Below are positions 8,789 to 35,292 of a stretch of DNA of 35,292 bases, in pieces (position 1 is the first letter of the stretch; the number at the start of each line of letters is the position of its first letter). The notes under the pieces were generated by a model. That model was given only the letters and a program-made list of their open reading frames with translations. It searched no databases and had not been told where the DNA came from. The DNA is from Rhodospirillales bacterium. GTDB taxonomy: Bacteria; Pseudomonadota; Alphaproteobacteria; ATCC43930; CGMCC-115725. The translations under genes were made by a program, and so were the position numbers. The DNA lies in contig JAQGID010000089.1 of assembly GCA_028291405.1 (NCBI GenBank), positions 1 to 35,292 of the forward strand, given 5' to 3'.

Positions 8789-8801
8789 AGGAGAGCGCAG
8801 C

Positions 8802-18019: not shown

Positions 18020-18408
18020 TCAGCCGCCCCCAGACTCCGAGCGGCAGTGGCCCTGTACGAGCGTGGCGAATGCGCCAAGCAGTACCGGCATTGGGCAGGG
18101 CTTGGTGAGCACCGGGCGATCGCGATATTCCGCTGGAACGCCGGTGGGACCGTAACCGGTCATGAAGATGAACGGGATGCCCCGCTCGGCGAGGGCGGCG
18201 GCGACCGGCAGCACCGTCTCTCCATGCAGATGTACGTCGAGCTGGGCGGCATCGATCCCTATTTCCTGCGCGATGGCCGGCGGGCGGCGCCGACCCGCGG
18301 AAATGGGCCGACGATCTCGCATCCGGCGTCCGCCAGAGCCATTTCCCAAACGTCCTCAACGATGAGCACCCGCCGTCCGGCCAGCGTCGGGGGTGAGGCG
18401 GCAATCAC
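18020..18408 (-). pseudogene. response regulator receiver protein, frameshifted
   Basis: From a GTG at 18408 the frame reads as the start of a receiver domain (LAGRRVLIVEDVWEMALADA, then GCEIVGPFPRVGAA) and then hits a stop at 18259. The rest of the domain continues in another frame (AIAQEIGIDAAQLDVHLHGE, then IPFIFMTGYGP and a final RPVLTKPCP, which carries the conserved Lys) down to 18020. The switch lies within the GC-rich run at about 18276-18295 and needs a one-base indel. The GTG overlaps the stop of the kinase upstream (GTGA), so this was a coupled kinase-regulator pair. A sequencing error is possible. Confidence 0.75.
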
Positions 18409-21400: not shown

Positions 21401-21698
21401 TCCGATTTGGTTCGACGACCATCCCGTCTTCGGCAGCGACCACCGGCATCGCCGTGTACTGCGAGATGATCGGAACGAGGGAGCTTTCGCGCCCGGGGGG
21501 CAGATGGGTGACGACCACGAAGGCGAGGCCGCTCTCGGTCGGCAGGGCGCGAAAGAACTGCTGAAGCGCCTCGATGCCGCCTGCGGATGCGCCGATTCCG
21601 ACGATGGGGAATTGCTTCTGCTGCTCGTTGGCGACCACGAACGCCTCGCTGAAAGTGTCGGGCGTGCGGCTCGGGGCAGCGTCGAACGCGGCAGCCAC
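18405..21698 (-). CDS. CheB-CheR-PAS-HWE hybrid sensor histidine kinase
   Basis: The 1097-residue protein has four parts. A CheB methylesterase domain covers about 30-215 with the triad S38 (GIGASAGG), H65 and D156 (SGGGSDGT). A CheR methyltransferase domain covers about 225-480 with the SAM motif VPGCATGEE. A long coiled coil (about 650-755, rich in EELKSANEEL-type heptads) and a PAS domain (about 755-865) follow. The HWE kinase domain has phosphoacceptor H882 (ELNHRVRNML), HELATNAAKHG (about 978) and RWREAGGP. It has no membrane segment. Such kinases act in general stress or light/redox signalling in alphaproteobacteria. The start is a GTG; an internal GTG near codon 21 is possible. Confidence 0.93.
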   Translation of the reverse strand: MAAAFDAAPSRTPDTFSEAFVVANEQQKQFPIVGIGASAGGIEALQQFFRALPTESGLAFVVVTHLPPGRESSLVPIISQYTAMPVVAAEDGMVVEPNRTHVLSHEGILTIENGRLRLRGPEAVRERHPIDVFFASLAVDRAERSVGIVLSGGGSDGTLGIKAVKQHGGLTLAQGSDHHERRHASMPESAIATGLVDLVLPVHEMPANLIAYFSGFAVLDDRFREKDHTGRIAAACDAICRILRRQLGHDFSGYKGKTFLRRVQRRMQVLHLGDIDAYVSRLDREPDEARLLFRDLLISVTSFFRDMEAFDELAARVIPRILAGKGADDTVRVWVPGCATGEEVYSIAILLLEGMDKLPALPKVQVFATDIDEPALAVARAARYPSSLLDGISPERLQRFFTAVGGSYSLTREVRDLCIFSAHSVIRDPPFSRIDLISCRNLLIYLDGDLQSRVIPIFHYALRPGGYLFLGTSENITQHAELFTPLTKKQRLFQRRDQATVTVPVPLFLPGRNGNGAAPVVLAGSAGAMAGVPHLEGLPLRQAVERRVLERFAPAFVVVNRDDEVVYYSSRTGKYLEPAPGAPNRQLIAMARKGLRLELRAALREAEETRRRVRREGLSVEIDDRVQTIALTIEPLPDEKNPPLFLVVFEDVGRPLPPEEAWRARSTREDSTVEHLETELRETRERLQATVEEYETAVEELKSANEELVSVNEELQSTNEELETAKEEQQSVNEEMHTINAELNVKVDELDRANADLKNLFESTQIATLFLDRHLVIRSFTPAVTTLFNLIPTDRGRPLTDIANQLEAVDLRADIQHVLDTREPLERRVSGGAAKGTHYLMRILPYRAGDNTIDGVLVTFVDVNKVVAAEDHQLLLIAELNHRVRNMLGVVIGLVTQSAARAPEVSAFTNRLLERLHALAGTYGLVSRDNWTPVQLRELVQQELEPYLLGEEKQRITLEGAPVSLAPKAALAFGMAFHELATNAAKHGALLQPTGSIEVSWAIDGGGKANGEGKADGGNGAAPRLVVRWREAGGPVDNPGKGFGTDLLRRLLSYEVDGEAALEFTPQGVRAELSVPVDGELVRINDEPPAAPDREPT

Positions 21699-21777: not shown

Positions 21778-23004
21778 CAGGGTGATTCAATTCACCGCAT
21801 GTTCTGACTGAGCAAAACAGATTCTCCTTTGGCTGGTCATTCCAAGGGGGAGGTGCCGATGGGCACGTTATGGACTGCGCTTGAAGGCTTGCCGGATCAT
21901 CGGACGCGGAAGGGTCGGCGCTACTCCTTGGCGTCGGTGGTCGGCATCTCGTTGGCGGCGATGCTTTCGGGCGCGAACGATCTGATGGCGATCTATCGCT
22001 GGGGCGGTCGGCTGACGCCGAAGGGTCTGGCGGCGTTTGGCGTGACGCGCGGGCGGGCGCCCTGCCATGCAACCTATCACTATGTTTTCCGCTCGATCGC
22101 GTCTGGCGATCTGGAGCGGGCGTTGCGCGGCATGGTCGCGGCGGGCACGGCTGGGCATGTCGCGATCGACGGCAAGCGGCTGCGTGGCAGCCAGACCGAG
22201 ACGAGCCCCGGCATTCACATGCTGCAAGCGTTCTCGACGCGGCTTCAGGCCTGCGTCGGATCGCTTGCCGTGCCGCCCGAGAGCGCCGAGGTGATCGCGG
22301 CAATCGCCTTGCTGAAGGATCTCCCGATCGGCGAGGGCGACGTGATCACCGGCGACGCCGCCTTCACCTATCGACCCATCGTCGACGCCATTCGGGCCCG
22401 AGGGGCCGCATATTTCCTATTCGTCAAAGGCAACCAGCCCGAGCTTCAGGCCAAGATCGCCCACGCCTTCGGCGACGATTCCCCCCTCAAGGATCGCCGC
22501 GCTGCCGGGCATCGCCGACGGGCAGAGCGATCCGCCTGACCTGGAACGGGCGGAGACGATCGGCAAGGAGCATGGCCGCATCAAGACCCGCCGCATCGCC
22601 GTGCGCCCCTTGCCGGCCCGCCTCGACCACGCATGGCCGGGGCTCCTGCGCATCTGCCGGATCGAGCGCCGCCGCGAATTCAAAACCTACTGCGAGCGCC
22701 AGGTCATCTACGCCATCACCGACCTGCCGAAAGAGGCCGCCGATGCCAGCCGGCTCCTCGAGATCGCCCGCGCCCACTGGCAGGTCGAAAACCGCCTCTT
22801 CCGCGTCAAGGATGGCACCTTCGCCGAGGACGCCTGCCGCGTCCGCACCGGAAACGCGCCCGCCGCCCTCGCCCATATCCGCGATTGCGCCCTCACCCTC
22901 ATCCGACGAAAAGGCCGTAAACCAAAACCAGCCCGCGAAGCCTTCGCCGCAAACCCGCGAGCCGCCATCCGAGAAATCATCACGGCATGAATTGAATAGC
23001 CCTG
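21778..23004 (+). mobile_element. ISAs1-family insertion sequence, 1227 bp
   Basis: Both ends start CAGGG and match in 18 of the first 24 bases (left 21778-21801, right 22981-23004 read on the minus strand), sharing the core ATTCAATTCA. CAGGG ends, about 1.2-kb length, a single transposase and an exact 9-bp target duplication all fit ISAs1. The transposase frame is interrupted. The element sits between the CheB-CheR-HWE kinase (71 bp from its start) and the polyene operon. Confidence 0.9.
21859..22990 (+). pseudogene. ISAs1-family transposase, frameshifted
   Basis: The start at ATG 21859 has GGGGGAGG just upstream. The first part contains the family's LEGLPDHRTRKGRRYSLAS opening, AIDGKRLRGS with a catalytic Asp and VITGDAAFTYRP with a second. 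The second part, in the next frame, runs from about PPDLERAETIGKEHGRIKTR to the end, with ARAHWQVENRLFRVKDGTF carrying the catalytic Glu region. Removing one C from the run of six at 22481-22486 rejoins the two frames. The first frame otherwise stops at 22539. The element is probably immobile unless the indel is a sequencing error or a translational slip. Confidence 0.85.
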
Positions 23005-23295: not shown

Positions 23296-23571
23296 ATGTC
23301 GAAAGCAGATTCGCAGACTCTGGCTGAAAAATCTTTGCTGGACCTGATCATACGAACTCTCAATTTGGAAATACAGTCCGACGCGGTCGATCCGAAGGAC
23401 GCGCTTTACGACGAGGGACTGGGGCTGGACTCGATCGATATGCTTGAGATTGCGCTCGCAGTCTCGCAGACTTACGGTGTCAAGTTGAACGCCGATGACG
23501 AAAACAACCTGAAAATCTTCAGCTCGTTGCGCAGCCTCAGCAGCTTCATCGAGCAGCATCGGTCCAAGTGA
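23296..23571 (+). CDS. acyl carrier protein (aryl polyene type)
   Basis: The 91-residue acyl carrier protein has the phosphopantetheine site at S46 in GLGLDSIDMLE. It is slightly longer than FabF-pathway ACPs and carries an acidic helix 2 (MLEIALAVSQTYGVKLNADD) that partners bind. It is the first gene of the polyene operon and would carry the growing chain, in the role of ApeE/ApeF. Canonical APE loci usually have two ACP genes; only this one is visible here. The stop is followed directly by the ATG of the next gene. Confidence 0.93.
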   Translation: MSKADSQTLAEKSLLDLIIRTLNLEIQSDAVDPKDALYDEGLGLDSIDMLEIALAVSQTYGVKLNADDENNLKIFSSLRSLSSFIEQHRSK

Positions 23572-24243
23572 ATGCGACCGGCGGTAGCGCACTCTGGAAA
23601 GGCTGTCGTCGTGTTGCTGACGATGCTGTCGCCGGTGGCCGTCCATAAGGTTTTGCTGACGCCGGGCTGGACGGCGCTCGCAGCCTTGCTCATCGCGGCG
23701 CAGATCTGGTTGATCGCCTCGTTGTTCATGGGGCGTTTCCCGCTGCAGCTCAAGCTGCCGATCGTCGTCGGCGGTATCGGGGTGCTCGCTCTCATCCTGC
23801 GTCATTCCGGCGCCGAGGTCCTCGTCGCCTCGACCGGCATACCGCATGCATTGGCCTATACGGCGATGCTGATCATTTTCGGACGGTCGCTCACCGGCCC
23901 GCGAGAGAGCGTGATCACGAGCCTCGCGTTGCGCATGCGCGGTCCGCTGGGCCCGGCGGTCCTGCGCTATACACGCCGCGTAACCCTTGCGTGGTGCCTC
24001 TTTTTCGCGGCCCAGCTGATGGCTTCGCTCATCCTCTTCCTGTCGGCGCCGCCGGCGCTCTGGTCGTTGTTCATCAACGTTGCGAACTTTCCGCTCGTCC
24101 TCGTCATGTTCATACTGGAATATTCCTACCGGCTGGTGCGATATCCTGCCAGAGGGACGCGCGACCAGTTGTCCGACGTCTTCAAGGTCTTCGGCGGGCC
24201 GAAGGACACGCCGATACGGCGGGCCGATGAGGCGCGGTCGTGA
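23572..24243 (+). CDS. inner-membrane protein of aryl polyene locus (COG4648/ApeG-like)
   Basis: The 223-residue integral membrane protein has about six hydrophobic segments, including the N-terminal pair (VVVLLTMLSPVAVHKVLL and ALAALLIAAQIWLIASLF) and a C-terminal pair near LWSLFINVANFPLVLVMFIL. The cytoplasmic tail is hydrophilic. Size, topology and position between the ACP and the acyl ligase match the COG4648 membrane protein of APE gene clusters, whose biochemical job is not well defined. It may anchor the cytosolic assembly enzymes at the membrane; this is inference. Confidence 0.82.
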   Translation: MRPAVAHSGKAVVVLLTMLSPVAVHKVLLTPGWTALAALLIAAQIWLIASLFMGRFPLQLKLPIVVGGIGVLALILRHSGAEVLVASTGIPHALAYTAMLIIFGRSLTGPRESVITSLALRMRGPLGPAVLRYTRRVTLAWCLFFAAQLMASLILFLSAPPALWSLFINVANFPLVLVMFILEYSYRLVRYPARGTRDQLSDVFKVFGGPKDTPIRRADEARS

Positions 24244-24282
24244 GGCGTCGGTAAGTTATGAGCGCAGAGGCGGATTGACGTC

Positions 24283-25611
24283 GTGACGAGCACCTTTCCG
24301 CTGCTTCGGGGCTTCCGTCCGGAGACGCCGATCGGCTATCGCCGAGGCACGGTCGTGACCGTCGCGGAGTTCCTCCATGCTGTCGCCGCCCTCGCCGCGA
24401 CGATGCCCGATCGCCCCTACGTCGCCAATCTCTGCCGGGACCGGGTCCATTTCGCCGTCGGGCTGGCCGCCGCCCTGCTGCGCGGTCAGATCACCCTGCT
24501 GCCGCCCAACGAGACTCCCGGGCTGCTGCAGCAACTCGACGACGATTACCCGGGGTTCTATTGCCTGGCCGACGAGGCGGTACCCGCCGCGCCGCGCGTC
24601 CTTCGCTATTACGCACGCAGCCATGTCACGGATGCTATTCCGGAGATCCCGGCCTTCGCCGCCGTTCAGGAAGCCGTCGTACTCTTCACCTCGGGGTCGA
24701 CGGGCCGGCCGGTGCCTCAGGCAAAGGACTGGGGGACGCTGGTCCGCAGCGCGCTGGCGGCCGGTGCCCGTCTCGGCGCCGCCGGGCTGCAGGGCGCGTC
24801 GCTGCTCGGCACCGTGCCGCATCAGCATAGTTACGGCCTAGAATCACTGATCATGCTGGGCTTGCAGCACGGCATGACGCTTCATCGCGACCGGCTGTTC
24901 TTCCCGGCCGCGATCGCTGCCGAGCTCGCCGCCGCGCCGGGAGTGCGCATGCTGGTGACGACGCCGATCCATCTCCGCGTGCTGCTCGCCGATACGACGG
25001 CGCTGCCGCACGCCGATCTGCTGCTCTCGGCGACGGCACCGCTGCCGGCGGAGCTCGCGATCGAAGCCGAAGCAAGGTTCGGCGGGCCGCTCTACGAGAT
25101 CTACGGCTGCTCGGAGGCGGGTCAGGTGGCGGTACGGCGGACCGCGGCGACGGACGAATGGCAGTGCATCGAGGGCATTACGCTGCGGCAGGATGGCGAG
25201 GACACCTGGGCGAGCGGCGCCGCGGTGCCGCGGACGACCCTCCTCGGCGATATCATCGAGCTCCGCTCGAGCGAGCGGTTCCTGTTGCACGGCCGCAAGG
25301 CCGACCTCGTCAACATCGCCGGCAAACGGACCTCACTGGCCTATCTGAACCACCATCTCAACGCCATCGACGGGGTGCGCGACGGCGTCTTCGTGCTGCC
25401 GGGCGGTGACGATCTGGGGGAGGGGCGGCTGCGCGCCTATGTCGTCGCGCCCGGCCTCACCATCGAGGAGATCATGGCGGCGCTGCGCAGCCGCATCGAT
25501 CCGGCGTTCCTGCCGCGGCCGCTGTCGCTCGTCGAGGAACTGCCGCGAAATGCGCTCGGCAAGCTGCCGCGCGACGCGCTTTCCCGCTTGAACCTCGCGG
25601 CGCTGGACTGA
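24283..25611 (+). CDS. AMP-dependent acyl/aryl ligase (ApeH-like)
   Basis: The 442-residue adenylating enzyme has a P-loop VLFTSGSTGRPVPQAK (about 133-148), the adenine/acid motif YEIYGCSEAG, LLHGRKADLVNIAGKRTS and a C-terminal catalytic Lys in ALGKLPRDAL (K427). All ANL-family hallmarks are present, although the protein is shorter than a typical 500-600-residue acyl-CoA synthetase, as is usual for ApeH. It would activate the aryl starter acid (coumarate or hydroxybenzoate type in known APE systems) and load it onto the ACP. The start is a GTG; the nearest GAGG is about 13 bp upstream. Confidence 0.9.
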   Translation: MTSTFPLLRGFRPETPIGYRRGTVVTVAEFLHAVAALAATMPDRPYVANLCRDRVHFAVGLAAALLRGQITLLPPNETPGLLQQLDDDYPGFYCLADEAVPAAPRVLRYYARSHVTDAIPEIPAFAAVQEAVVLFTSGSTGRPVPQAKDWGTLVRSALAAGARLGAAGLQGASLLGTVPHQHSYGLESLIMLGLQHGMTLHRDRLFFPAAIAAELAAAPGVRMLVTTPIHLRVLLADTTALPHADLLLSATAPLPAELAIEAEARFGGPLYEIYGCSEAGQVAVRRTAATDEWQCIEGITLRQDGEDTWASGAAVPRTTLLGDIIELRSSERFLLHGRKADLVNIAGKRTSLAYLNHHLNAIDGVRDGVFVLPGGDDLGEGRLRAYVVAPGLTIEEIMAALRSRIDPAFLPRPLSLVEELPRNALGKLPRDALSRLNLAALD

Positions 25612-25617
25612 CCGCCG

Positions 25618-25929
25618 GTGCCGCAACAGGACCACCGGTTCGACCCGCGGCATCCGACGGCGGCAGGGCACTTTCCGGGTAACCCGATCATCCCCGGGGC
25701 CGTGCTGCTCGACGAGGTGCTCGAGGCGGTCGCCGTAGCGCAGGGCATTGCCGTGACGCCTTGCGAGATCCGATCGGTCAAGTTCCTGCTTCCGGTACGG
25801 CCCGGCGATCGTATCGTGATACGGTGGGAAGAGGCGCCAAGCGGCGAGACGCGCTTCGACTGCATCTTCCCCGATTCCGGGCGTATCATCCTGAAAGGCA
25901 GCATGAGTTTTCCCGGGCGGATTCAGTGA
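25618..25929 (+). CDS. 3-hydroxyacyl-ACP dehydratase, hotdog fold (ApeI-like)
   Basis: The 103-residue protein has the FabZ/FabA active-site segment GHFPGNPIIPGAVLLDEV with H18, so it should dehydrate 3-hydroxyacyl-ACP to the trans-enoyl form without reduction. It is short, one hotdog domain. In characterised APE systems ApeI works in a complex with ApeP, and a candidate ApeP is at 33883. The start is a GTG 6 bp after the ligase stop, and its stop overlaps the next gene's GTG (GTGA). Confidence 0.88.
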   Translation: MPQQDHRFDPRHPTAAGHFPGNPIIPGAVLLDEVLEAVAVAQGIAVTPCEIRSVKFLLPVRPGDRIVIRWEEAPSGETRFDCIFPDSGRIILKGSMSFPGRIQ

Positions 25930-26825
25930 GCCGCACCCTCTCGCAAGAGCAGCTCTGGCTGCAGCGTTCCGAGCGCGGCACGGCTTCGGTCATCCGGCTC
26001 GTCGTCTGGGTCGCCTTGCGGCTCGGCCGGCCGGTGGCGCGTGCGCTGCTCTGGCCGGTCTGTGCCTATTTCGTGACGTTCTCGCCGCAGTCGCGCATGG
26101 CCTCGCGGGATTATCTGACGCGCATCCTCGCGCGACGGCCGCATCTTGGGGATCTATTCCGTCATTATTTCACCTTCGCGGCCTGCGTCCTCGACCGCGT
26201 CTATCTGCTGAACGATCAACTCGATCGCTTCGATATCGAGGTGCATGGCGAGCCGCTCGTGCTCGATGCGCTGCAAGGGGGCGACGGCTGCTTCCTCTTC
26301 GGGGCGCATCTCGGCAGCTTCGAGGTCCTGCGCTCGCTCGGCCGCCGGCAGCCCGGCATACAGGTCAGCCTCGTCATGTACGAGGACAATGCGCGCAAGA
26401 TCAACGCGGTGCTCAACGCAATCAATCCCGCACTCGCCATGGACATCATCGCGCTCGGGCGCAGCGGCTCGATGATCGGCGTCGAATCGCGCCTGGCGCA
26501 GGGACACTGCATCGGCCTGCTCGTCGACCGCGGCCTCAAGGGCGAGGGGATGGTGCGCCGCGACTTTCTCGGCGCACCGGCGAATTTTCCGCTCGGACCC
26601 TTCCGCATGGCGATCCTGCTCCAGCGGCCGGTCGTGGTCATGTTCGGCCTGTATCGCGGGGGCCGGCGCTATGAGGTCCATTTCGAGCGATTGACCCAGG
26701 CGGGAGAGGCCGGCGCCGAGACGATCTCGGTCGATCAGCTGTTGGATCGCTATGTGGCCCGGCTCGAGCACTACTGCCGGCTGGCGCCGTTCAACTGGTT
26801 CAACTTCTACGATTTCTGGCATTGA
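25926..26825 (+). CDS. LpxL-like lipid A/lysophospholipid acyltransferase
   Basis: The 299-residue protein belongs to the LpxL/HtrB acyltransferase family. It has an N-terminal membrane-associated helix (about 20-52) and the HX4E catalytic motif in GAHLGSFEVL (H128, E133), followed by GLLVDRGLKGEG and ANFPLGPFRMAILLQRPVV. It would transfer the finished chain, or an ordinary acyl chain, onto a lipid carrier. In canonical APE loci the acyltransferase is often fused to or beside a glycosyltransferase; here the glycosyltransferase is a separate gene on the other strand at the right edge. The GTG start overlaps the dehydratase stop. Confidence 0.88.
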   Translation: MSRTLSQEQLWLQRSERGTASVIRLVVWVALRLGRPVARALLWPVCAYFVTFSPQSRMASRDYLTRILARRPHLGDLFRHYFTFAACVLDRVYLLNDQLDRFDIEVHGEPLVLDALQGGDGCFLFGAHLGSFEVLRSLGRRQPGIQVSLVMYEDNARKINAVLNAINPALAMDIIALGRSGSMIGVESRLAQGHCIGLLVDRGLKGEGMVRRDFLGAPANFPLGPFRMAILLQRPVVVMFGLYRGGRRYEVHFERLTQAGEAGAETISVDQLLDRYVARLEHYCRLAPFNWFNFYDFWH

Positions 26826-26826
26826 G

Positions 26827-27423
26827 ATGCGCTTCCGGACCATGCTGATTGCGGCGCTCCTCGCGCTGGGCGGCGAGCTTGCCGCGGCGCAGCCGGCGGC
26901 GGTCGTTCCGCAATGGGGCCTGCCGGCGCTGATGAAGGCAATGGCCGAGATGCGGGCGCAGACCGCCAATTTCGTCGAGCGGAAATACATGAGCGTCCTG
27001 ACCCAGCCGCTGGAATCCTCCGGCTCGCTGGTCTACCTCGCCCCGGCCAAGCTCCAGAAGGACACCTTGCAGCCGAAGCCGCAGCGCCTCGTCGTCGAAG
27101 GCGATCGGCTGACGATCGAGGACGGGTCGCAGGAGCGCAGCCGCACCCTGTCGCTCGCCGATTACCCGCAGATCGGGGCGATCGTCGAAAGCATCCGTGC
27201 GACGCTCGCCGGCGATCAGAAGACGCTCGAGCAGTTCTACACGGTCGCTTTCAGCGGCGACGCCGCGCGCTGGCAGCTGGCGCTGACGCCCAGGGACCGA
27301 AAAGTCGAGGAGATCATCAAGTCGATCCGGATCACTGGGCATGACGTGCTGATCGACGCCGTCGAGACGCAGGAGGCGAACGGCGACCGCGACGTCATGA
27401 CGATCGTGAAAGAAGGAAAGTGA
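26827..27423 (+). CDS. LolA-like periplasmic carrier protein (ApeM-like)
   Basis: The 198-residue protein starts with a signal peptide (MRFRTMLIAALLALGGELAA, cleavage near AAAQ) and continues as a LolA/LolB-like half-barrel (MRAQTANFVERKYMSVLTQP, SSGSLVYLAPAKLQKDTLQP). In APE loci this protein sits next to the MMPL exporter and is thought to shuttle the polyene lipid across the periplasm. It is two bases downstream of the acyltransferase stop. Its own stop overlaps the GTG of the exporter gene (GTGA). Confidence 0.87.
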   Translation: MRFRTMLIAALLALGGELAAAQPAAVVPQWGLPALMKAMAEMRAQTANFVERKYMSVLTQPLESSGSLVYLAPAKLQKDTLQPKPQRLVVEGDRLTIEDGSQERSRTLSLADYPQIGAIVESIRATLAGDQKTLEQFYTVAFSGDAARWQLALTPRDRKVEEIIKSIRITGHDVLIDAVETQEANGDRDVMTIVKEGK

Positions 27424-29762
27424 CCCTCGCCCGCGGCGGCGCGGTCGCCCTGTGGTTGGCTGGTCTCCTCGCCTGCGCGCTGGTCGTCATGCGGGGCGAG
27501 TTCAGCACCGACATGTCGGCCTTCCTGCCGCGCTCCCCGGTTCCGGCGCAGCAGATCCTGGTCGAGCAGATGCGCGACGGCGTCGTCGCGCGGATGGTCC
27601 TGGTCGGCATCGCCGGCGCGCCGCCGGCGCAGTTGGCGGCGCTCAGCAAGGCGACGGCGAAAGCGCTGCGCGGCGCGCCGGAATTCGCGCTGGTCGCGAA
27701 CGGCGAGCCTGCCGGGCTCGAGCGCGATCAGGAATTTCTCTGGCGCAACCGCTACCTGCTCAGCCCCGGCGTCGTTCCGGAGCGCTTCACGGCTGCGGGG
27801 CTCCGCCAGGCGCTCGAGAACGACCTGCAGCTTCTCGGCTCGGATGCCGCAATGCTGGTCAAGCGGACGCTGCCGGCCGACCCGACGGGCGAGATCCTCA
27901 CGCTCGCCGACGCGCTGGCCGGGGCGCAGCATCCGGAGACGCGCGATGGAGTCTGGTTCGCCAAGGACGGCAGCTCGGCGGTGATGCTGGTGCAGACCCG
28001 CGCCGCCGGCTTCGACATCGACGCGCAGCAGCACGCGCTGGCGCTGATCGACCAGGCCTTTGCTGCGGCGAAGCAGGAGGTGGGCGCGCCCGATGCGCGC
28101 CTGCTGGTGAGCGGTCCGCCGGTCTTCGCCGTCCATGCGCGCGCGACGATGCAGCAGGATGCGACGCGCTTCTCGCTGATCGCGACGGCCCTGGTCGCGG
28201 CCCTGCTCCTCTTCGCATATCGCCGGCCGCGCGTCGTCCTGTTGGCGCTGTTTCCAGTCGTCAGCGGCGCCGTCGCCGGCGTTGCGGCGGTGAGCCTCGG
28301 CTTCGGCTATGTCCACGGCATCACCCTCGGCTTCGGCGTCACGCTGATCGGCGAGGCGGTCGATTATGCGATCTATCTCTTTACCCAGACCGTGCCGGGC
28401 AGCCCGCCGGCGGCGACGCTGCCGCGCATCTGGCCGACGCTTCGCCTTGGCATGCTGACCTCGATCTGCGGCTTCAGCGCCATGCTGTTGTCGAGCTTCA
28501 CGGGTTTCGCACAGCTTGGGCTCTTCACCATCGTCGGCCTCGCCGTGGCGCTCGGCGTCACCCGCTTGATCCTGCCGCTCCTCCTGCCGCGGAAATTCGC
28601 TAATCTCACCTCGACGGTCTTCGCGCCGCCGCTGCTGGTGGTGATCCGCCATGCCCGACCCCTCCGTATCGTCGTCGGCCTGCTCGTCGTACTGGGCCTG
28701 CTGTCGCTGGCACTGCATCGCGGCGGGATATGGGAGGACGAGATCGAGAGCATGAGCCCGATCTCGGCACAGGATAAGGCGCTTGACGCGCAGCTGCGGC
28801 GCAATACCGCGGCGCCCAACGTCCGCTACCTGCTGGGGATCGAGCGGCCAGACGTCGAGGCGGCGCTCGCCGCCAGCACGTCGGTCTCCGCGGTATTGAC
28901 CGATCTCATCGGCACGAAGGAGCTCGCCGGCTTCGACGCGCCGCAGCTCACTCTGCCGAGCCAAACGACGCAGCGTGCCCGCCAGGCGGCGCTGCCGCCG
29001 CCCGAGATCCTCCGCGCCAACCTCGCCACGGCCCTGGACGGAATGCCGTTCCGCATCGAGACCTTCGCGCCGTTCCTCGCCGATGTCGCGGCGGCGCGCG
29101 AGCAGCCGCTGCTCGACCGTGCCAGCTTCGCGGGAACGAGCCTGGCGACCAAGCTCGGCTCGCTGCTGATCCAGCGTCGGGGCGGCTGGATGGCGATGCT
29201 GCCGCTGCGCGGCGTCGTCGATTCGTCGCGTCTCGCCGCAGCGGTCGCTGGCGCCGCTGGGCCGGACGTCATTTTCCTCGATCTCAAGGGCGAATCCGAC
29301 CGGCTGCTCGAGACTTATCTCCACGAGGCGATCATGCTGTCGCTGATCGGCAGCCTCGTCATCGTCGCGCTGCTGCTCGTCAGCCTGCGCTCGCTCCGCC
29401 GCACCGCGACGGTGCTGGCGCCACTTGCCGCCGCGGTCGTCGCGACCGCCGGGATCCTGGCCTTCGGCGCGCAAAAGCTATCCATCTTCAACCTCTTCGG
29501 CCTGCTCCTCGTCGTCGCCGTCGGATCGAATTACTGCCTGTTCTTCGAGCGCCGAGCCGCCGTCGGCGAGACGCGCGAACGCATGATCGCCTCGCTCGTC
29601 CTGGCAAATCTCTGCACGGTGATCGGCTTCGGCGTGCTCGCCTTCTCCCGGATCCCGGTGCTCCATGGGATCGGCGAGACGGTGGCGATCGGCGCGCTGC
29701 TGAGCCTCGTCTTCGCCGCGGTCCTGACGGCGCCGTCGCAAGCGCCAGCGGAGCCGACGTGA
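27420..29762 (+). CDS. MMPL/RND-type exporter (ApeN-like)
   Basis: The 780-residue membrane protein has the two-fold layout of MMPL transporters: one N-terminal helix, a large periplasmic domain, five or six helices, then the same again. Membrane blocks are visible at about residues 5-25, 250-400 and 630-770. Polar residues in GFGVTLIGEAVDYAIYLFTQ and in the second-half GSNYCLFFERR segment match the family's proton-relay region. It probably extracts the polyene lipid from the inner membrane. It is coupled to the LolA-like gene by overlap (GTGA) and to the hydrolase by TGATG. Confidence 0.9.
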   Translation: MTLARGGAVALWLAGLLACALVVMRGEFSTDMSAFLPRSPVPAQQILVEQMRDGVVARMVLVGIAGAPPAQLAALSKATAKALRGAPEFALVANGEPAGLERDQEFLWRNRYLLSPGVVPERFTAAGLRQALENDLQLLGSDAAMLVKRTLPADPTGEILTLADALAGAQHPETRDGVWFAKDGSSAVMLVQTRAAGFDIDAQQHALALIDQAFAAAKQEVGAPDARLLVSGPPVFAVHARATMQQDATRFSLIATALVAALLLFAYRRPRVVLLALFPVVSGAVAGVAAVSLGFGYVHGITLGFGVTLIGEAVDYAIYLFTQTVPGSPPAATLPRIWPTLRLGMLTSICGFSAMLLSSFTGFAQLGLFTIVGLAVALGVTRLILPLLLPRKFANLTSTVFAPPLLVVIRHARPLRIVVGLLVVLGLLSLALHRGGIWEDEIESMSPISAQDKALDAQLRRNTAAPNVRYLLGIERPDVEAALAASTSVSAVLTDLIGTKELAGFDAPQLTLPSQTTQRARQAALPPPEILRANLATALDGMPFRIETFAPFLADVAAAREQPLLDRASFAGTSLATKLGSLLIQRRGGWMAMLPLRGVVDSSRLAAAVAGAAGPDVIFLDLKGESDRLLETYLHEAIMLSLIGSLVIVALLLVSLRSLRRTATVLAPLAAAVVATAGILAFGAQKLSIFNLFGLLLVVAVGSNYCLFFERRAAVGETRERMIASLVLANLCTVIGFGVLAFSRIPVLHGIGETVAIGALLSLVFAAVLTAPSQAPAEPT

Positions 29763-30466
29763 TGTCCCCAACCCGCAGCGATGCCGATCACGACGCCGGC
29801 GAGCGTATCCTGCTCGTCGCCCTGCCGGGCGCCTTCATGGCGCCGCAGGAGTTCGCGTCGGCCGGTTTTGGCCGGATGCTGCGCGACCATCGCCTGCCGG
29901 TCGATCTCGTCGCCGCCGGGATCGACAGCGGCCTCTATCTCGACGATGCGGTGCCCGAGCGCATCGACGCCGAATTCGTGATTCCGGCGCGCGAACGCGG
30001 CTATCGCCGCATCTGGCTGCTGGGCATCTCGCTCGGCGGCATGGGAGCGCTGCAATATCTCCGCCGCTGTCCCGGTCGGGTCGAGGGCGCAATCCTGCTT
30101 GCACCGTTCCTCGCGACCCGCGGACTCGTCGTCGAGGTCGGCGAAGCGGGCGGCCTCTCGTCGTGGCGTCCGGGTGAGCTCGCGCCGGGCGATATCGAGC
30201 GGCCTCTGCTGGCGTGGCTCGGCGAGCAGAATTTCATGGCGGCGAAAACCCCGGTCCTGTATCTCGGCTGCGGCCGGGACGATCGCTTCGCGGCGGCTAG
30301 TACGCTGCTCTCCGCATGCCTGCCGCCGGAACGCGTCGTCGCTGCCGACGGCGGCCACGACTGGGAGACCTGGGCGCGCCTCTGGCAGGCGATCCTGGCA
30401 CGGCGCCCATTCGAGCTGCCGCGTGATGCCGCGGCGTGTGGCGAGAGCTTCGATCTGGTACTGTAG
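29762..30466 (+). CDS. alpha/beta hydrolase in the polyene operon
   Basis: The 234-residue alpha/beta hydrolase has the nucleophile elbow LLGISLGGMG (S90), an acid in GCGRDDRF and a C-terminal His in GGHDWETW. No signal peptide is seen, so it is cytosolic. Canonical APE loci carry a hotdog-fold thioesterase in this general place; this protein may release or edit the polyenoyl chain instead, but that is inference from position. The ATG overlaps the exporter's stop (TGATG); a GTG three bases earlier is an alternative. It could also be a lipase-like enzyme. Confidence 0.82.
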   Translation: MSPTRSDADHDAGERILLVALPGAFMAPQEFASAGFGRMLRDHRLPVDLVAAGIDSGLYLDDAVPERIDAEFVIPARERGYRRIWLLGISLGGMGALQYLRRCPGRVEGAILLAPFLATRGLVVEVGEAGGLSSWRPGELAPGDIERPLLAWLGEQNFMAAKTPVLYLGCGRDDRFAAASTLLSACLPPERVVAADGGHDWETWARLWQAILARRPFELPRDAAACGESFDLVL

Positions 30467-30486
30467 CGGCGGTTCGGAGGTCGCGA

Positions 30487-31830
30487 ATGCGGGTTGCTCG
30501 GGTGGGGGTGGTGGCGTCGATCGTTCTCAGCCTTGCCGGCTGCAGCGCCGCGCGCTTCAGTGTCCCGGCGACTGAGCCGGACGAAGCCGCCTATTCCGCG
30601 CTCTTCCCCTATTATGTCGAGTTCTGCGCGGTTTCCCAGCTCAGGAAAAAGCCCGGCTTCGGTGCCAAGGTCGAAAGCGGCTTCGGCGGCCATTCGGTGC
30701 TCTATCTCAACGGCGTCTGCAAGGTGAAGGACGCGCATTATCCCGAGATCGCGCTGTGCGACGATGGGCCGGAGGTGGCGGAAAACGGCGTCGGCCTCAG
30801 CGTCAACGCCCATTACAAAAACGCCAATTGGGTGGCGACGGAAGGGCGCGACTTCTTCTTCCATGGCGGCCTCGACCCGGCGGCGCGGCTGACCCGTGCG
30901 GATTATGCGCGGGTCCAGGCCAAGGCGGAGGCGATGGGGATTTACGACGGAGTGCAGTTCCACCGGGAGGTCTTCGACGACATGCCCGCCGGCATGCCCC
31001 GCGAGGACTTCAAATACGAAATGTCGGTGGCGACCGATTATGCGATCGGCTTTGGCCGCGACCGGTACTGTGCCCGCGTGCCGATGAGCCGCGACAAGAT
31101 GGCAAGGGTCGTCACCTTCCTCAACGGGCTGAACGAGCCCTATCGCCGCGATGACAAGGAGTTCGAGTGGGATATCCTGCGTGACAATTGCGCGCATGTC
31201 ACGCACAACGCCCTTGCGACCGTCGATCTCTGGGACGAGTGGCCGATTGACCGCTTCGTTCTCTTCGCGGCGTTCGATTTTCCCGTGCCGAAAAACGAAT
31301 TCGTCAATCTCGTGCGGCGCACGAACGACGCCCCGGTCGACGATCTGCCGGCGCTCTACGCCGATTCGGCCGCGCGGCGGGCGTTGCTGAACGACGACTG
31401 GCTCCCGACGGAGCCGGGGGCGATCGTCGAAACCGAGCCGGTGTTTCAGAAGAACGACGTCTACGATACGGATCTGATGCTGATCTTTTACGACGATCCG
31501 ATCCTCGGACGGTATCAGTCGCGTTTCGATCGCATTTTCGCCGATCCGCGCTACACGGACCTTCGCGCGAATCTCGAATATTTCGTGGCCTTGTTCGACA
31601 AGGTCGAGCGCGACCGGCGACCGCTCGCGACCTATCCCGAGCGAACCGATCCGGGCTTCGTGGCATTCTACGACCGGTATTATGACCTTGCGGGGCGGCA
31701 GAGTGCGGTGCTTCGCGCCGGGCTCGCCGGGTTGCAGACGGCGCCGCGGCTGCGTCCGGCGCAGTTCGGGTCGAGTACGACCGAGCGCGGGATGCGCTCC
31801 CACGACCAGCTTGCCGCGATGCAACGATGA
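30487..31830 (+). CDS. lipoprotein with DUF4105/Lnb-like Cys-His domain
   Basis: GGAGG precedes the ATG at 30487. The 447-residue product has a short signal with lipobox LAGC (C19). The body carries GFGGHSVLYLNG (H69) and WDILRDNCAHVTHNAL (C235, H237). A His in GHSxxY and a later DNC match the DUF4105/Lnb N-terminal periplasmic family, which has a papain/NlpC-like Cys-His arrangement; the assignment is by pattern only. A bound cysteine hydrolase or acyltransferase at the envelope is plausible, perhaps acting on the polyene lipid. The C-terminal third (about 300-440) has no recognised domain. Confidence 0.7.
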   Translation: MRVARVGVVASIVLSLAGCSAARFSVPATEPDEAAYSALFPYYVEFCAVSQLRKKPGFGAKVESGFGGHSVLYLNGVCKVKDAHYPEIALCDDGPEVAENGVGLSVNAHYKNANWVATEGRDFFFHGGLDPAARLTRADYARVQAKAEAMGIYDGVQFHREVFDDMPAGMPREDFKYEMSVATDYAIGFGRDRYCARVPMSRDKMARVVTFLNGLNEPYRRDDKEFEWDILRDNCAHVTHNALATVDLWDEWPIDRFVLFAAFDFPVPKNEFVNLVRRTNDAPVDDLPALYADSAARRALLNDDWLPTEPGAIVETEPVFQKNDVYDTDLMLIFYDDPILGRYQSRFDRIFADPRYTDLRANLEYFVALFDKVERDRRPLATYPERTDPGFVAFYDRYYDLAGRQSAVLRAGLAGLQTAPRLRPAQFGSSTTERGMRSHDQLAAMQR

Positions 31831-31886
31831 TGGGCGTTCGCAATCGTACGACATTCGGCAACGCGTTTAAGACGAAAGCGTAAGAA

Positions 31887-33080
31887 TTGCAGCCCCTCGT
31901 GCTCAGCCGTTTCTGCATCGTGACCTGCCTTGGCGCCGGTCAGCAGGAGACCTTGAAGGCAATCCGGGACGGCACGAGCGGGTTGCGTTCCTGCGCCTTC
32001 GGTGACGTCGACATTCCGACGTTTATCGGCGAGGTCGACGGCACCGCCGAATTCACGCCGACCGGCGAGCTGGCTCATTTCGACTGCCGCAACAACCGGC
32101 TTGCCGGGATGGCGCTCGTCCAGGACGGTTTCGAGGAGGCCGTCGCGGTCGCCCGCGAGCGTTATGGCGCGCACCGCATCGGGCTCTTTCTGGGAACCAG
32201 CACGTCGGGGATCCTCGACGCCGAGATCGCCTACCGGGCGCGCGACCCGGTCGGTGGCGCGCTGCCGGCGTGGTTCGACTATGCCCATACGCAGAATACC
32301 TATTCGCTTGCCGATTTCCTGGCGCATCGGCTCGGGCTCTCCGGACCGGCGGTCGTCGTCTCCTCGGCCTGCTCGTCGAGCGCCAAGGTCTTCGCCACCG
32401 CGTCCCGCATGATCGAGGCCGGCATGTGCGATGCGGCGATCGTCGGCGGCACGGATTCGCTGTGCCTCACGACGCTCTACGGCTTTCGCTCCCTCGGCCT
32501 TACCGCGACGACACCCTGCCGGCCTTTTGACGTCGCGCGCGACGGGATCTCGATCGGCGAGGGCGCGAGCTTCGTTCTGCTGGAGCGGCGGCGCGACTAT
32601 CGCGGCGGCGACGCCGTGGCGCTGCTCGGCTTCGGCGAAAGCAGCGATGCCTATCACATGTCGTCGCCGCATCCCGAAGGGCGGGGCGCCCGGCTGGCGA
32701 TGGAGCGCGCCTTGACGACCAGCGGCCTCGCCCCCTCGGAGATCGATTACATCAATCTGCACGGGACAGCGACGAAGGTTGGGGATGCCGCCGAGGACCA
32801 GGCGGTCTTCACGCTGTTCGGCGGCGACACGCGGTGCAGCTCGACGAAGGGCCAGACCGGCCACACCCTCGGCGCGGCGGGCGCGATCGAGACGGTGATC
32901 TCCGCCTTGGGCATCCTGCACGGAATCGCGCCGGGAACGACGTCGATGGCGACGGTCGATCCCGAATTTCGCAGCCGGTATCTGTCGGCGCCGGAGCCGT
33001 CGCGGCTCGATCGTACGATGACGAACTCCTTCGGTTTCGGCGGCAGCAACTGCACCCTCGTGCTCGGACGGGCTTCCTGA
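31887..33080 (+). CDS. beta-ketoacyl-ACP synthase (ApeO-like)
   Basis: The 397-residue ketosynthase has the full Cys-His-His site: C162 in VSSACSSSAK, H292 in LHGTATKVGD and H326 in STKGQTGHTLGAAG with K321. It would extend the aryl starter with malonyl-ACP units. The start is a TTG at 31887; an in-frame stop lies directly upstream, so no earlier start exists. The ribosome binding site is weak. It is 56 bp after the lipoprotein gene, the largest gap in the operon apart from the leader, and it overlaps the chain-length-factor gene by TGATG. Confidence 0.93.
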   Translation: MQPLVLSRFCIVTCLGAGQQETLKAIRDGTSGLRSCAFGDVDIPTFIGEVDGTAEFTPTGELAHFDCRNNRLAGMALVQDGFEEAVAVARERYGAHRIGLFLGTSTSGILDAEIAYRARDPVGGALPAWFDYAHTQNTYSLADFLAHRLGLSGPAVVVSSACSSSAKVFATASRMIEAGMCDAAIVGGTDSLCLTTLYGFRSLGLTATTPCRPFDVARDGISIGEGASFVLLERRRDYRGGDAVALLGFGESSDAYHMSSPHPEGRGARLAMERALTTSGLAPSEIDYINLHGTATKVGDAAEDQAVFTLFGGDTRCSSTKGQTGHTLGAAGAIETVISALGILHGIAPGTTSMATVDPEFRSRYLSAPEPSRLDRTMTNSFGFGGSNCTLVLGRAS

Positions 33081-33886
33081 TGCGCGTCTTCGTCGAGGGC
33101 ATCGGCCTGCGGGGTCCCGGGCTCGATGGCTGGCAGGCGAGCGCCGGCGTCCTGGCCGGCTCGCAGAGCTATCATGCCGCGCCGCTTGTCGTGCCGCCCG
33201 CCCCGTTGTTGCCGGCGAACGAACGACGGCGCGCCGTGATGAGCGTCCGTCTCGCGCTCGCCGTCGGCGTCGAGGCGCTTGCCAATGCCGGGCGCGATGC
33301 TCTCGACGTCGCGAGCGTCTTTACCTCGTCGAGCGCGGACGGTGAGACGATCAACGAGATCCTGCGGGCGCTTGCGACGGTCGAGCGCGAGATCTCGCCG
33401 ACGCGCTTCCACAACTCGGTGCATAACGCCCCGTCGGGCTATTGGAGCATCGCGACGCAATCGCAGGAGCCGAGCACCAGCCTCTGCGCCTTCGACGCCA
33501 GCTTTGCCGCCGGAATTCTCGATGCCGCCGTGCAGGCGGCGGTCGATCGCCGTCCGATCCTGCTGGCCGCCTATGATATTCCGTATCTTCCGCCGCTCGC
33601 TGCCGTCCGGCCGTTGACCGCGACCTTTGCCGCGGCCTTCGTGCTCGTGCCGGAGCGCACGGCGCGGACGATCGCGCGGCTCGACATCGCGCTCGATCAT
33701 CGCCGAGGGAGCGAAACGACGGTGATGGACGATGCGGGCCTCGAGGCCCTGCGGACCGGCGCACCGGCAGCGCGCAGCTTGCCGCTGCTCGCGGCGATCG
33801 CGCGTGGCGGCGCCGATACCGTCGTCCTCGACGGCACGACGGGCGATCGTCTTGTCGTCTCGCTTTCGGCGGAGGAGTGCCGATGA
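33080..33886 (+). CDS. chain-length-factor-like ketosynthase partner (ApeC-like)
   Basis: The 268-residue protein resembles the N-terminal half of a ketosynthase (FTSSSADGETINEILRAL, RFHNSVHNAPSGYWSIAT). The segment CAFDASFAAGILDA stands where the nucleophile motif would be. C136 is displaced from the catalytic position and the two His motifs are absent, so it should not condense chains alone. In known APE systems a shortened, inactive partner pairs with the ketosynthase to form a KS-chain-length-factor dimer. Its ATG overlaps the ketosynthase stop (TGATG), in line with equimolar production. Confidence 0.85.
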   Translation: MRVFVEGIGLRGPGLDGWQASAGVLAGSQSYHAAPLVVPPAPLLPANERRRAVMSVRLALAVGVEALANAGRDALDVASVFTSSSADGETINEILRALATVEREISPTRFHNSVHNAPSGYWSIATQSQEPSTSLCAFDASFAAGILDAAVQAAVDRRPILLAAYDIPYLPPLAAVRPLTATFAAAFVLVPERTARTIARLDIALDHRRGSETTVMDDAGLEALRTGAPAARSLPLLAAIARGGADTVVLDGTTGDRLVVSLSAEECR

Positions 33887-34320
33887 TCGAGCGGCCGGCG
33901 ATCGCCGGGCTCGTCCCCCATGCCGGGTCGATGTGCCTCATCGACCGGGTCCTGCACTGGGACGCCGCCGGCATCAGCTGCACCTCCGCCAGCCACCGCC
34001 TCGTCGGCAATCCGCTGGCGCGGCGCGGCGCGATCGCCGCGATCTGCGGCGTCGAATACGCGGCGCAGGCGATGGCGATCCACGGCAGGCTGGTCGATGC
34101 CGACGCGGCGCGCCCGCGCGCCGGCTTCCTGGCGAGCCTGCGCGACGTCGCTTGCTCCGCCGACCGGTTGGACCTCGTCGACGGCGACCTCACGATCGCC
34201 GCCGGGCGGCTCTTCGGCGACGGCAATTCGGTGATCTATCGCTTCACCGTGCACGGCGACGACGACCGGCTTCTCCTGAGCGGGCAAGCCGCTGTCGTCC
34301 TCGCAGCGGCGCCGCCATGA
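33883..34320 (+). CDS. 3-hydroxyacyl-ACP dehydratase, hotdog fold (ApeP-like)
   Basis: The 145-residue hotdog protein opens with LVPHAGSMCLIDRVLHWD, the hallmark of ApeP-type dehydratases, with H13 as the probable catalytic or structural His. YAAQAMAIHG is the second conserved stretch. It is the likely partner of the shorter dehydratase at 25618. GGAGGAG lies 5 bp before ATG 33883, which overlaps the upstream stop (ATGA). Its own stop overlaps the ketoreductase ATG (ATGA). Confidence 0.88.
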   Translation: MIERPAIAGLVPHAGSMCLIDRVLHWDAAGISCTSASHRLVGNPLARRGAIAAICGVEYAAQAMAIHGRLVDADAARPRAGFLASLRDVACSADRLDLVDGDLTIAAGRLFGDGNSVIYRFTVHGDDDRLLLSGQAAVVLAAAPP

Positions 34321-35036
34321 GACGCGCCATCGTCACCGGCGGCAGCGGCGCGATCGGTGCGGCAATCTGCCGAAGCCTCGCCGCCGACGGGCACCATGTC
34401 TACGTCCATGCGAATTCCGGCCTGCCGCGCGCCGAGGCGATCGTCCGCGAGATCGTCGAAGCCGGGGGCTCTGCCGCGGCCGTCGCCTTCGACGTCACCG
34501 ATTTCGCGGCGACCGGCGCCGCGCTCGCCCAATTGCTCGAGAACGGCGCGATCGAGATCGTCGTCAACAATGCCGGGATCCACGAGGATGCGGTGATGCC
34601 CGGCATGCGCCGCGAGCAATGGACGCGGGTGATCGACGTCTCGTTGAACGGGTTCTTCAACGTGACCCAGCCGCTGCTGATGCCGATGATCGGCAAGCGC
34701 TGGGGGCGCATCGTCAACGTCTCCTCCGTGGCGGCGCTCGTGGGCAACCGCGGCCAGGCGAATTACGCGGCCGCGAAGGCAGGGCTGCACGGCGCCGCCA
34801 AGTCGCTGTCGCTCGAACTCGCGAGCCGTGGCATCACCGTCAATACGGTGGCGCCGGGAATCATTGCCTCGCCGATGACCGCGGGGGTCTTTCCCAAGGA
34901 GACGATCGACCGGCTCGTCCCGATGAAGCGCGCCGGACGGCCGGAGGAGATCGCCGATCTCGTCGCCTTCCTGGCATCGGACCGCGCCGCTTATGTCTCC
35001 GGCCAGGTGATCTCGGTCAACGGTGGAATGATCTGA
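34317..35036 (+). CDS. 3-ketoacyl-ACP reductase, FabG/SDR type (ApeQ-like)
   Basis: The 239-residue short-chain dehydrogenase has the NADPH site TGGSGAIG (7-14), NNAG (84-87) and a full catalytic set: N110, S137, Y150 and K154 (NYAAAKAG). Numbering is within one residue of E. coli FabG. It would reduce the 3-keto group before dehydration. Without an enoyl reductase in the operon, repeated cycles leave the conjugated double bonds that define a polyene. The end overlaps the convergent glycosyltransferase gene by 20 bp. Confidence 0.93.
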   Translation: MRRAIVTGGSGAIGAAICRSLAADGHHVYVHANSGLPRAEAIVREIVEAGGSAAAVAFDVTDFAATGAALAQLLENGAIEIVVNNAGIHEDAVMPGMRREQWTRVIDVSLNGFFNVTQPLLMPMIGKRWGRIVNVSSVAALVGNRGQANYAAAKAGLHGAAKSLSLELASRGITVNTVAPGIIASPMTAGVFPKETIDRLVPMKRAGRPEEIADLVAFLASDRAAYVSGQVISVNGGMI

Positions 35037-35292
35037 CGCCGCGCCGCGACAGGTCGGGGAGGCGGCGGAGAAATCCCAGGATGAGACGCGCGTGCATCCA
35101 GGTCAGCAGGATGTTGTCGCGGATGTAGTTGAAATGCGACACGCCGCCTTCGGCCTTGGTGAGGTAGCGGACCGGGGTCGACCGCTTGATCGGCCGGATG
35201 CCGTGCCAGCACAGGCGTACGACGGCCTCGGGATCGAAGTCGAAGCGCCGCATCCAGCGGGTACTCTCCATCACGGCGCGCAGTTCGTGGAT
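35017..35292 (-). CDS. family 2 glycosyltransferase, C-terminal end (runs off the window)
   Basis: The last 91 residues of a protein whose start lies beyond the right edge. RWMRRFDFDPEAVVRLCWHG, RYLTKAEGGVSHFNYIRDN and a closing HARLILGFLRRLP are typical of the C-terminus of GT2 enzymes linked to APE loci, where they attach a sugar to the polyene lipid or its carrier. The gene converges on the ketoreductase with a 20-bp overlap. The catalytic DxD region is outside the window. Confidence 0.75.
   Translation of the reverse strand: MHELRAVMESTRWMRRFDFDPEAVVRLCWHGIRPIKRSTPVRYLTKAEGGVSHFNYIRDNILLTWMHARLILGFLRRLPDLSRRGVRSFHR

Follow-up and report, generated by a model that had tools for sequence, protein, structure and literature searches.

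This locus raises the question of whether a set of aryl polyene (APE) genes in a Rhodospirillales bacterium belongs to a cluster of a known kind or to a new one. The window, by which we mean the whole stretch of DNA analyzed (positions 1 to 35292; 35,292 nucleotides), is the entire contig JAQGID010000089.1 (C305 hereafter) of assembly GCA_028291405.1, which amounts to 6.48 Mb in 461 contigs and is 96.75% complete. At 23296-35036 it carries 13 genes, running in one direction (+) and nearly abutting (Table 1), which the original prediction, made from the letters of the window, had described as an APE-type cluster of non-canonical composition. We are highly confident that they form a xanthomonadin/arcuflavin-type aryl polyene locus that has been split by an assembly break. 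The composition is unusual only beside E. coli and is ordinary for the xanthomonadin/arcuflavin kind, except for one gene, here called P464; the odd composition is that of a known subtype, and the question narrows to that gene.

Gene content across the contig break

Both the genes that mark an APE cluster and those that mark the subtype were found. The former comprise an ApeO-type ketosynthase (KS) with Cys-His-His, an adjoining ApeC-type half-length chain-length factor (CLF), a ligase, a ketoreductase (KR), and two dehydratases; the latter comprise (i) a single acyl carrier protein (ACP) and a single KS, with no ApeK, ApeR, or ApeF in the cluster across the window and contig C398, and (ii) a family-2 glycosyltransferase (GT2) separate from the acyltransferase, plus a halogenase-family flavin adenine dinucleotide (FAD) enzyme. 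The KS scored 512 bits (7.6e-154; cut-off, 407) against the curated model PRK09185, on which E. coli ApeO scores 556 bits, and its C162, H292, and H326 are conserved in E. coli ApeO and in 93% or more of 99 aligned rows. That it might be an ApeR was rejected, since it is 44% identical to E. coli ApeO versus 34% to ApeR and reaches 168 bits against PRK09116 versus 779 bits for E. coli ApeR; E. coli ApeR and ApeF match PRK09116 and PRK05350, respectively, which are models other than those of ApeO and ApeE. The CLF matched Ketoacyl-synt_2 (PF13723; 2.3e-23), is 33% identical to ApeC over 191 amino acids, and contains an SVHN motif. A PDB search gave 6qsp_A and 7f28_B as top matches of the KS and matched the CLF to 7f28_A and 6qsp_B, entries that we take to be ApeO-ApeC complexes. 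The ACP scored 110 bits (cut-off, 70) against PRK09184, on which E. coli ApeE scores 89.5 bits, and is 46% identical to ApeE, with Ser46 conserved in 93% or more of 64 rows. These curated-model scores, together with the recurrence of the gene order in other loci, rule out a chance origin of the gene set.

Among the remaining genes, the KR (FabG model PRK05653.1-5; 6.7e-107) is 46% identical to ApeQ, the ligase combines an AMP-binding match (1.2e-16) with 28% identity to ApeH (E, 4e-27), and the membrane protein is 33% identical to E. coli ApeG over 78 amino acids (E, 2e-6), with no match in the Pfam scan. The first dehydratase matched a FabA-like model (2.8e-5) and, under that model's cut-off, an ApeI-like one (8.5e-4); its GHF...P..PG motif, which ApeI also has, is conserved in 93% or more of 60 rows. 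The second dehydratase, unmatched in Pfam, NCBIfam, and PDB and by BLAST to ApeP, is the weakest assignment of the cluster, a putative one made from its position and a few residues (P14, H15, M19, and Q64 in a family alignment of 86 rows) common to ApeP. The LolA-like carrier matched LolA_3 (2.6e-18) and reached 62.5 bits against LolA2_flexi, below the cut-off of 125, and the exporter matched MMPL (2.3e-12) and, by blastp, is 25% identical to ApeM (E, 3e-19). The acyltransferase (Lip_A_acyltrans; 7e-9) is 28.7% identical over 303 amino acids to ApeJ, aligned to its residues 250 to 556, and its H128...E133 motif recurs in the E. coli protein and in 93% or more of 70 rows. The N-terminal and C-terminal halves of ApeJ align with the GT2 and the acyltransferase, respectively, which are separate genes here. 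The alpha/beta hydrolase (Hydrolase_4; 5e-7) has Ser91, within GISLGG, in 97% and Asp175 and His200 in 100% of 37 rows. In E. coli, the release step is thought to be performed by ApeK, according to the available part of the published account (PMC8253772); by analogy, the hydrolase or the acyltransferase could fill that role here.

The cluster continues past the end of the window. The last 127 bases of C398 are the exact reverse complement of the last 127 bases of the window, this overlap occurs once in each contig, and the reading frame stays open across the join. C398 completes the GT2 gene, whose window and C398 parts are 65% and 66% identical, respectively, to an Azospirillum GT2, and no rival match is nearby in strength, the next glycosyltransferase of the genome having an E value of 1.3e-9. 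The FAD enzyme on C398 is 62% identical to its Azospirillum counterpart, scores 114 bits (cut-off, 21) against Trp_halogenase (PF04820), and carries WFWFIP and FVDPVFSTG, which we take to be halogenase motifs; the open reading frame (ORF) after it reads, from its sequence, as an MFS-like transporter. The same convergent order follows the KR in Azospirillum ramasamyi, with an acyltransferase between the GT2 and the FAD enzyme, and Acidocella loci have the GT2 and then the FAD enzyme after the KR, as at the C305-C398 join. The converging ends of the KR and GT2 genes share an identical 20-base overlap in the window (35017-35036) and in an Azospirillum locus (L131, 17143-17162). Because the join adds the completion of the GT2 and the halogenase-family gene, the cluster comprises 15 genes.

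Library scans and coordinates bore out the gene list of the original prediction, from the ACP through the KR, with every named gene present and co-directional, and the two extra enzymes that it mentioned are the alpha/beta hydrolase and P464. Its count of one full ketosynthase holds across the assembly, where the four KS-family matches are this KS, FabF (658 bits; cut-off, 494), and two thiolases; an ApeR elsewhere in the assembly was thus rejected. Neither a methyltransferase nor a thioesterase had been seen in view, and, in agreement, tblastn with E. coli ApeA, ApeB, ApeD, ApeF, and ApeK against the window and C398 returned zero matches at E of ≤1, while ApeN returned a chance match only (0.35) and the ApeR query matched the ApeO-type KS. 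With ApeM and ApeP as queries, the same tblastn failed to find the MMPL gene and the second dehydratase, respectively, so diverged counterparts could escape it; each cluster gene has an assignment other than the missing Ape genes sought or is P464, and the idea that the missing genes lie just beyond the contig end was rejected by the search of C398. The gene content, with a KR, ApeI- and ApeP-type dehydratases, and a cluster without enoyl reductase, supports the APE pathway and the conjugated product that had been proposed.

P464 and the exporter-ketosynthase interval

P464 gave no confident Pfam match, its own match to Lnb_N (PF13387) lying at 0.08 with 12.9 bits versus a cut-off of 22.2; five of ten P464 homologues matched Lnb_N at E of ≤1, the best at 4.9e-5. 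In an alignment of 10 rows, one of them partial, N234, C235, and H237 are invariant and GGH69 is kept in at least 90%, and the His motif precedes the NC motif in the sequence, the order expected of the permuted NlpC/P60 group. The AlphaFold model (pLDDT, 82.9; pTM, 0.84) aligned to TseH with a Z of 10.2 and a root-mean-square deviation of 3.4 over 156 residues (next row, Z of 5.7), and the core domain modeled alone (pLDDT, 73.6) did so with a Z of 9.8, followed by the RID domain of MARTX toxin (Z of 7.3). Other full-length fold rows, with a Z of 4 to 6 and mostly involving the C-terminal helices, were taken as chance; lower rows included PPPDE1 (Z of 4.7) and Aichivirus A 2A (Z of 3.4), and Foldseek found nothing under an E value of 0.001 (best, 0.11). 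A lipobox is present in P464 of the window and in the homologues from L050, L035, L038, L061, and G010, and a lipobox or signal was not evident in the homologue from L062 or in those of the Acidocella type.

In the available part of the literature on the group (PMC12994826), TseH, DUF4105, LRAT, and YiiX are presented as a group of permuted NlpC/P60 enzymes with lipid substrates, and DUF4105 is reported as a lipoprotein N-acyltransferase in Bacteroides. As far as that text goes, P464 shares with the DUF4105/Lnb and TseH group a conserved His followed by Cys, with a predicted, possibly papain-like fold that resembles theirs, but it differs from the DUF4105/Lnb group in matching Lnb_N weakly and in sitting in a polyene cluster. 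No description of a P464-type gene in APE clusters was found in the literature searched. We tentatively read P464 as a putative module, specific to this lineage, for the transfer or hydrolysis of lipid acyl groups. A putative acyl-bond role in the polyene pathway is a tentative proposal, and it is somewhat more doubtful still that P464 is a new aryl-polyene-lipid enzyme, namely, a lipoprotein acyltransferase/amidase (permuted NlpC/P60, Lnb-like) that would form or exchange an acyl bond at the sugar moiety of the exported polyene lipid, as a functional alternative to the deacetylase found in the same slot in most relatives. If true, the lineage would make a differently acylated, halogenated APE lipid.

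P464 was found in 13 of 192 relatives, its own genome included, and in 1 of 398 genomes across the phylum, which is again its own; a scan of viral contigs returned none. It occurs together with the KS in 11 genomes (in G188, the two lie near the ends of two contigs), versus 11 genomes with the KS among the 179 without P464 (Fisher's exact test, p of 2e-10, uncorrected for kinship). A strict tie of P464 to the cluster was rejected, as 2 of the 13 P464 genomes (G010 and G024) are without this KS. G010 carries a stand-alone, lipobox-bearing homologue (L161, 8269-9669), the only one of the polyene genes sought to be matched in an 18-kb stretch, and this context may tell the general function of P464; G024 carries two distant homologues (L162 and L163; 36 to 38%).

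The interval between the MMPL and KS genes was compared in 72 distinct loci, a count that excludes the duplicates L049 and L062 as well as L050, which has no MMPL in view. P464 occupies it in 13 loci, a polysaccharide deacetylase in 46, and both in 0 (hypergeometric probability of 1.5e-7, uncorrected for kinship), and 10 loci hold none of the six genes sought. The deacetylase is also absent throughout the fetched stretch in all 17 P464-bearing loci (15 distinct); since the genome under study has two matches to the relatives' deacetylase away from the locus (E values of 6e-16 and 9e-9), this absence holds for the locus only. On the KS tree, the slot labels cluster, with 3 changes versus a shuffled mean of 16.4 (the P464 labels of the window, of L037, with P464 on another contig, and of L058, with a partial one, were set by hand). 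The exchange of P464 and deacetylase was not a single event, because well-supported branches force at least 2 changes and because L029, which has the KS closest in sequence to that of the window (64%), carries the deacetylase and no P464. A slot that holds either gene, with no examined locus holding both, offers a testable handle on the sugar/acyl chemistry.

P464 could also have no part in the pigment and be carried along in the operon as a passenger, a reading to which we give limited weight. It would fit the copies in G010 and G024, neither of which reaches the KS threshold, the position of P464 in L033, on the far side of the halogenase gene and roughly 3 kb after the KR, and the Acidocella-type homologues without a visible signal or lipobox, but it sits poorly with the proportion of P464 genomes that have the KS (11/13, versus 11/179 of the others), with the presence of P464 in 13 of the 72 MMPL-KS intervals, and with its failure to co-occur with the deacetylase in any of these intervals or the 17 P464-bearing loci.

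Recurrence, ketosynthase tree, and proposed pathway

Loci of alpha-, beta-, and gammaproteobacteria repeat this gene order, among them those of Acidocella, Skermanella, Azospirillum, Methylotenera, Thiobacillus, and Azonexus, and some show insertions (e.g., Gallionella L052) or have the two blocks swapped (L093). The 80 comparison loci were chosen for likeness to the window KS, and shares among them are not representative of the phylum. The KS was found in 22 of 192 relatives and, in an evenly drawn sample of the phylum, in 88 of 398 genomes (own genome included; E of ≤1e-60; both types counted). In the KS tree (101 rows, midpoint rooted; duplicate contigs L049, L050, and L062 excluded, as from the ORF tables), E. 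coli ApeO joins six alphaproteobacterial loci on a long branch apart from the window, and five of these (L044 to L048) carry ApeK-like and ApeR-like genes. We use only the broad split between the window and E. coli, since the E. coli ApeO group arises from within the other loci and no strongly supported group contains the window KS. Thiobacillus thioparus has an additional ketosynthase upstream of its ACP (L094, 1491-2747), which stands beside E. coli ApeR, the outgroup, both being long branched.

Several points weigh against the xanthomonadin/arcuflavin assignment: (i) the likeness to Xanthomonas, Lysobacter, and Azoarcus is one of published annotation and gene order, not of sequences; (ii) the window KS has the loose placement just described and the branches of the E. 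coli group are long; (iii) 15 of the 81 named loci show an additional ApeR-like match at a distance of over 1.5 kb from the KS, so that having a single KS is not a constant feature of the window type; (iv) the source of the aryl starter was not found, as a UbiC search that detects the E. coli gene was empty for this genome and an Acidocella chorismatase (XanB2 type, matched in 35 of the 81 named loci) was unmatched there in a search without positive control; (v) an arcD/ApeD-like acyltransferase and the relatives' methyltransferases are absent from the window and C398, and an ApeD-like acyltransferase was not found in the genome, again in a search without positive control; (vi) no pigment is known for this strain.

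Gene identities, order, and conservation, the contig join, the motifs, and the predicted fold and distribution of P464 are direct observations, upon which a pathway may be proposed by analogy with characterized loci, each chemical step being inferred in this way. The ligase would adenylate a hydroxybenzoate and load it onto the single ACP, the KS-CLF pair would elongate the ACP-bound starter with malonyl units, the KR would reduce, and the two hotdog dehydratases would dehydrate; because the cluster has no enoyl reductase, the polyene chain would stay conjugated. Release or transfer of the polyene would next fall to the hydrolase and/or the lipid A-type acyltransferase, the separate GT2 would attach a sugar, the halogenase-family enzyme would modify the aryl head, and MMPL and LolA would move the lipid to the outer membrane; P464 may act at the membrane on an acyl bond of the lipid and stands in the slot where most relatives have the polysaccharide deacetylase. 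A halogenated, membrane-bound aryl polyene lipid is the probable product, and a difference from the E. coli and Vibrio pigments is plausible, since a Trp_halogenase-family gene lies just past the contig end. In the cited APE papers, as far as their text is available, attachment of the polyene to lipid and its transport to the outer membrane are still largely predicted.

Just upstream of the ACP gene lies a DDE_Tnp_1 transposase (21829-22990, +; first ORF scanned) with a frame break near 22539, after which it continues in another frame; judged from its sequence, it is probably a decayed insertion sequence. Farther upstream are a 1097-residue ORF that, from its translation, reads as a CheB-CheR-PAS-histidine kinase fusion (18405-21698, -), an X-Pro dipeptidyl-peptidase-like S15 hydrolase (15043-16794, -) with an adjoining Crp-type regulator (16958-17794, -), and a three-gene 2Fe-2S/FAD/molybdopterin-binding hydroxylase set of the aldehyde oxidase/CO dehydrogenase type (6615-11012, +).

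Table 1. Genes of the cluster within the window, with their assignments and supporting features
Assignment	Position	Strand	Basis
ACP, ApeE/arcV type	23296-23571	+	Ser46 in GLDSID; PRK09184, 110 bits
Membrane protein, ApeG (COG4648)/arcU position	23572-24243	+	ApeG similarity; no Pfam match
Aryl acid AMP-ligase, ApeH/arcT type	24283-25611	+	AMP-binding; ApeH similarity
Hotdog dehydratase, ApeI/arcS type	25618-25929	+	FabA-like match; GHF...P..PG motif
Lipid A-type acyltransferase, arcR; C-terminal half of ApeJ	25926-26825 (start inferred)	+	Lip_A_acyltrans
LolA-like periplasmic carrier, ApeL/arcQ	26827-27423	+	LolA_3 match
MMPL/RND exporter, ApeM/arcP	27420-29762	+	MMPL match; ApeM similarity
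Alpha/beta hydrolase, arcO position; candidate release thioesterase/esterase	29759-30466	+	Hydrolase_4; Ser-Asp-His
P464, permuted NlpC/P60-like, DUF4105/Lnb-like, lipobox LSLAGC	30487-31830	+	GGH69...NC235; predicted fold
Beta-ketoacyl-ACP synthase (KS), ApeO/arcK type	31887-33080	+	PRK09185; C162, H292, H326
Half-length CLF, ApeC/arcJ type	33077-33886	+	Ketoacyl-synt_2; ApeC similarity
Putative second dehydratase, ApeP/arcI type	33877-34320	+	Position and few residues only
KR, ApeQ/arcH type	34317-35036	+	FabG model; ApeQ similarity
GT2, C-terminal part, arcE; N-terminal half of ApeJ	35017-35292	-	Cut by contig end

Comparison with characterized clusters

The arc genes of Azoarcus sp. BH72 are annotated, in the available part of the source (Table 1 of PMC3949708), as ACP (arcV), hypothetical protein (arcU), ligase (arcT), dehydratase (arcS), acyltransferase (arcR), LolA (arcQ), exporter (arcP), hypothetical protein (arcO), deacetylase (arcN), methyltransferase (arcM), KS (arcK), half KS (arcJ), dehydratase (arcI), reductase (arcH), glycosyltransferase (arcE), and halogenase (arcA). 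By annotation and position, the 12 window genes other than P464, together with the GT2 and the halogenase, have counterparts there in nearly the same order. Unlike the present locus, the arc genes form two unlinked loci, and they include a chorismatase, an antiporter, a second acyltransferase, an MltA-interacting protein, a methyltransferase, and a polysaccharide deacetylase (PMC3949708); arcB (chorismatase), arcD (acyltransferase), arcC, arcG, arcN, arcM, and others are missing here, and that gene table, as available, lists nothing like P464. The xanthomonadin-like cluster of Lysobacter enzymogenes OH11 has, in the accessible part of its description (PMC3691225), one ACP, one KS by a half-length CLF, two dehydratases, one KR, and a dolichyl-phosphate-mannose-synthase-like gene, with no thioesterase or methyltransferase found, and deletion of the KS, ACP, or KR abolished the pigments. 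It differs from the present locus in having a XanB2-type gene and no halogenase, and the same text does not mention P464.

A truly new APE class, with a composition unlike any characterized family and a new scaffold, is very unlikely: P464 is absent from the arcuflavin table and the Lysobacter account, and no chorismatase, ApeD-like acyltransferase, or methyltransferase was found, but the other 12 window genes, the GT2, and the halogenase are paralleled in arcuflavin clusters as set out above, relatives without P464 share the rest of the locus, and APE clusters of Acetobacteraceae with a probable halogenase have already been published (PMC8776678). As a general claim, the non-canonical composition of the original prediction is not supported, since the layout departs from that of E. 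coli but is the one published for Lysobacter and Azoarcus. What was to count against novelty, a characterized APE family of identical content, is largely what the gene content reveals, P464 and the missing accessory genes being the exceptions.

By sequence, the locus shares with the APE cluster of E. coli CFT073 the genes for ApeC, E, G, H, I, J, L, M, O, and Q, and by few residues that for ApeP, whereas CFT073 has in addition ApeA, B, D, F, K, N, and R and a fused ApeJ and, in the available part of the account, no halogenase, hydrolase, or P464 counterpart (PMC8253772). An E. coli/Vibrio-type locus that has lost ApeR, ApeK, ApeF, and others, a shade less likely even than a new class, would fit the same core enzymes and the nested, not sister, position of the E. 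coli KS group in the midpoint-rooted tree, but it was rejected on the KS tree and the ApeK/ApeR distribution, as the group bearing ApeR and ApeK is separate and a long branch away from the window KS, ApeK matched 0 of the 81 named loci (picked for likeness to that KS), and ApeJ corresponds to two genes, as annotated in arcuflavin clusters.

The xanthomonadin/arcuflavin-type locus described here can finally be set beside the APE clusters of Acetobacteraceae, in which P464 is not mentioned in the available part of the survey (PMC8776678). It shares with them the KS, an adenylate-forming protein, a dehydrogenase, a probable halogenase, and transport genes. APE clusters, with a probable halogenase among their genes, are thus already known from Acetobacteraceae, the survey giving 19 of 43 for its acidophilic group and 28 of 96 for its acetous group (PMC8776678).

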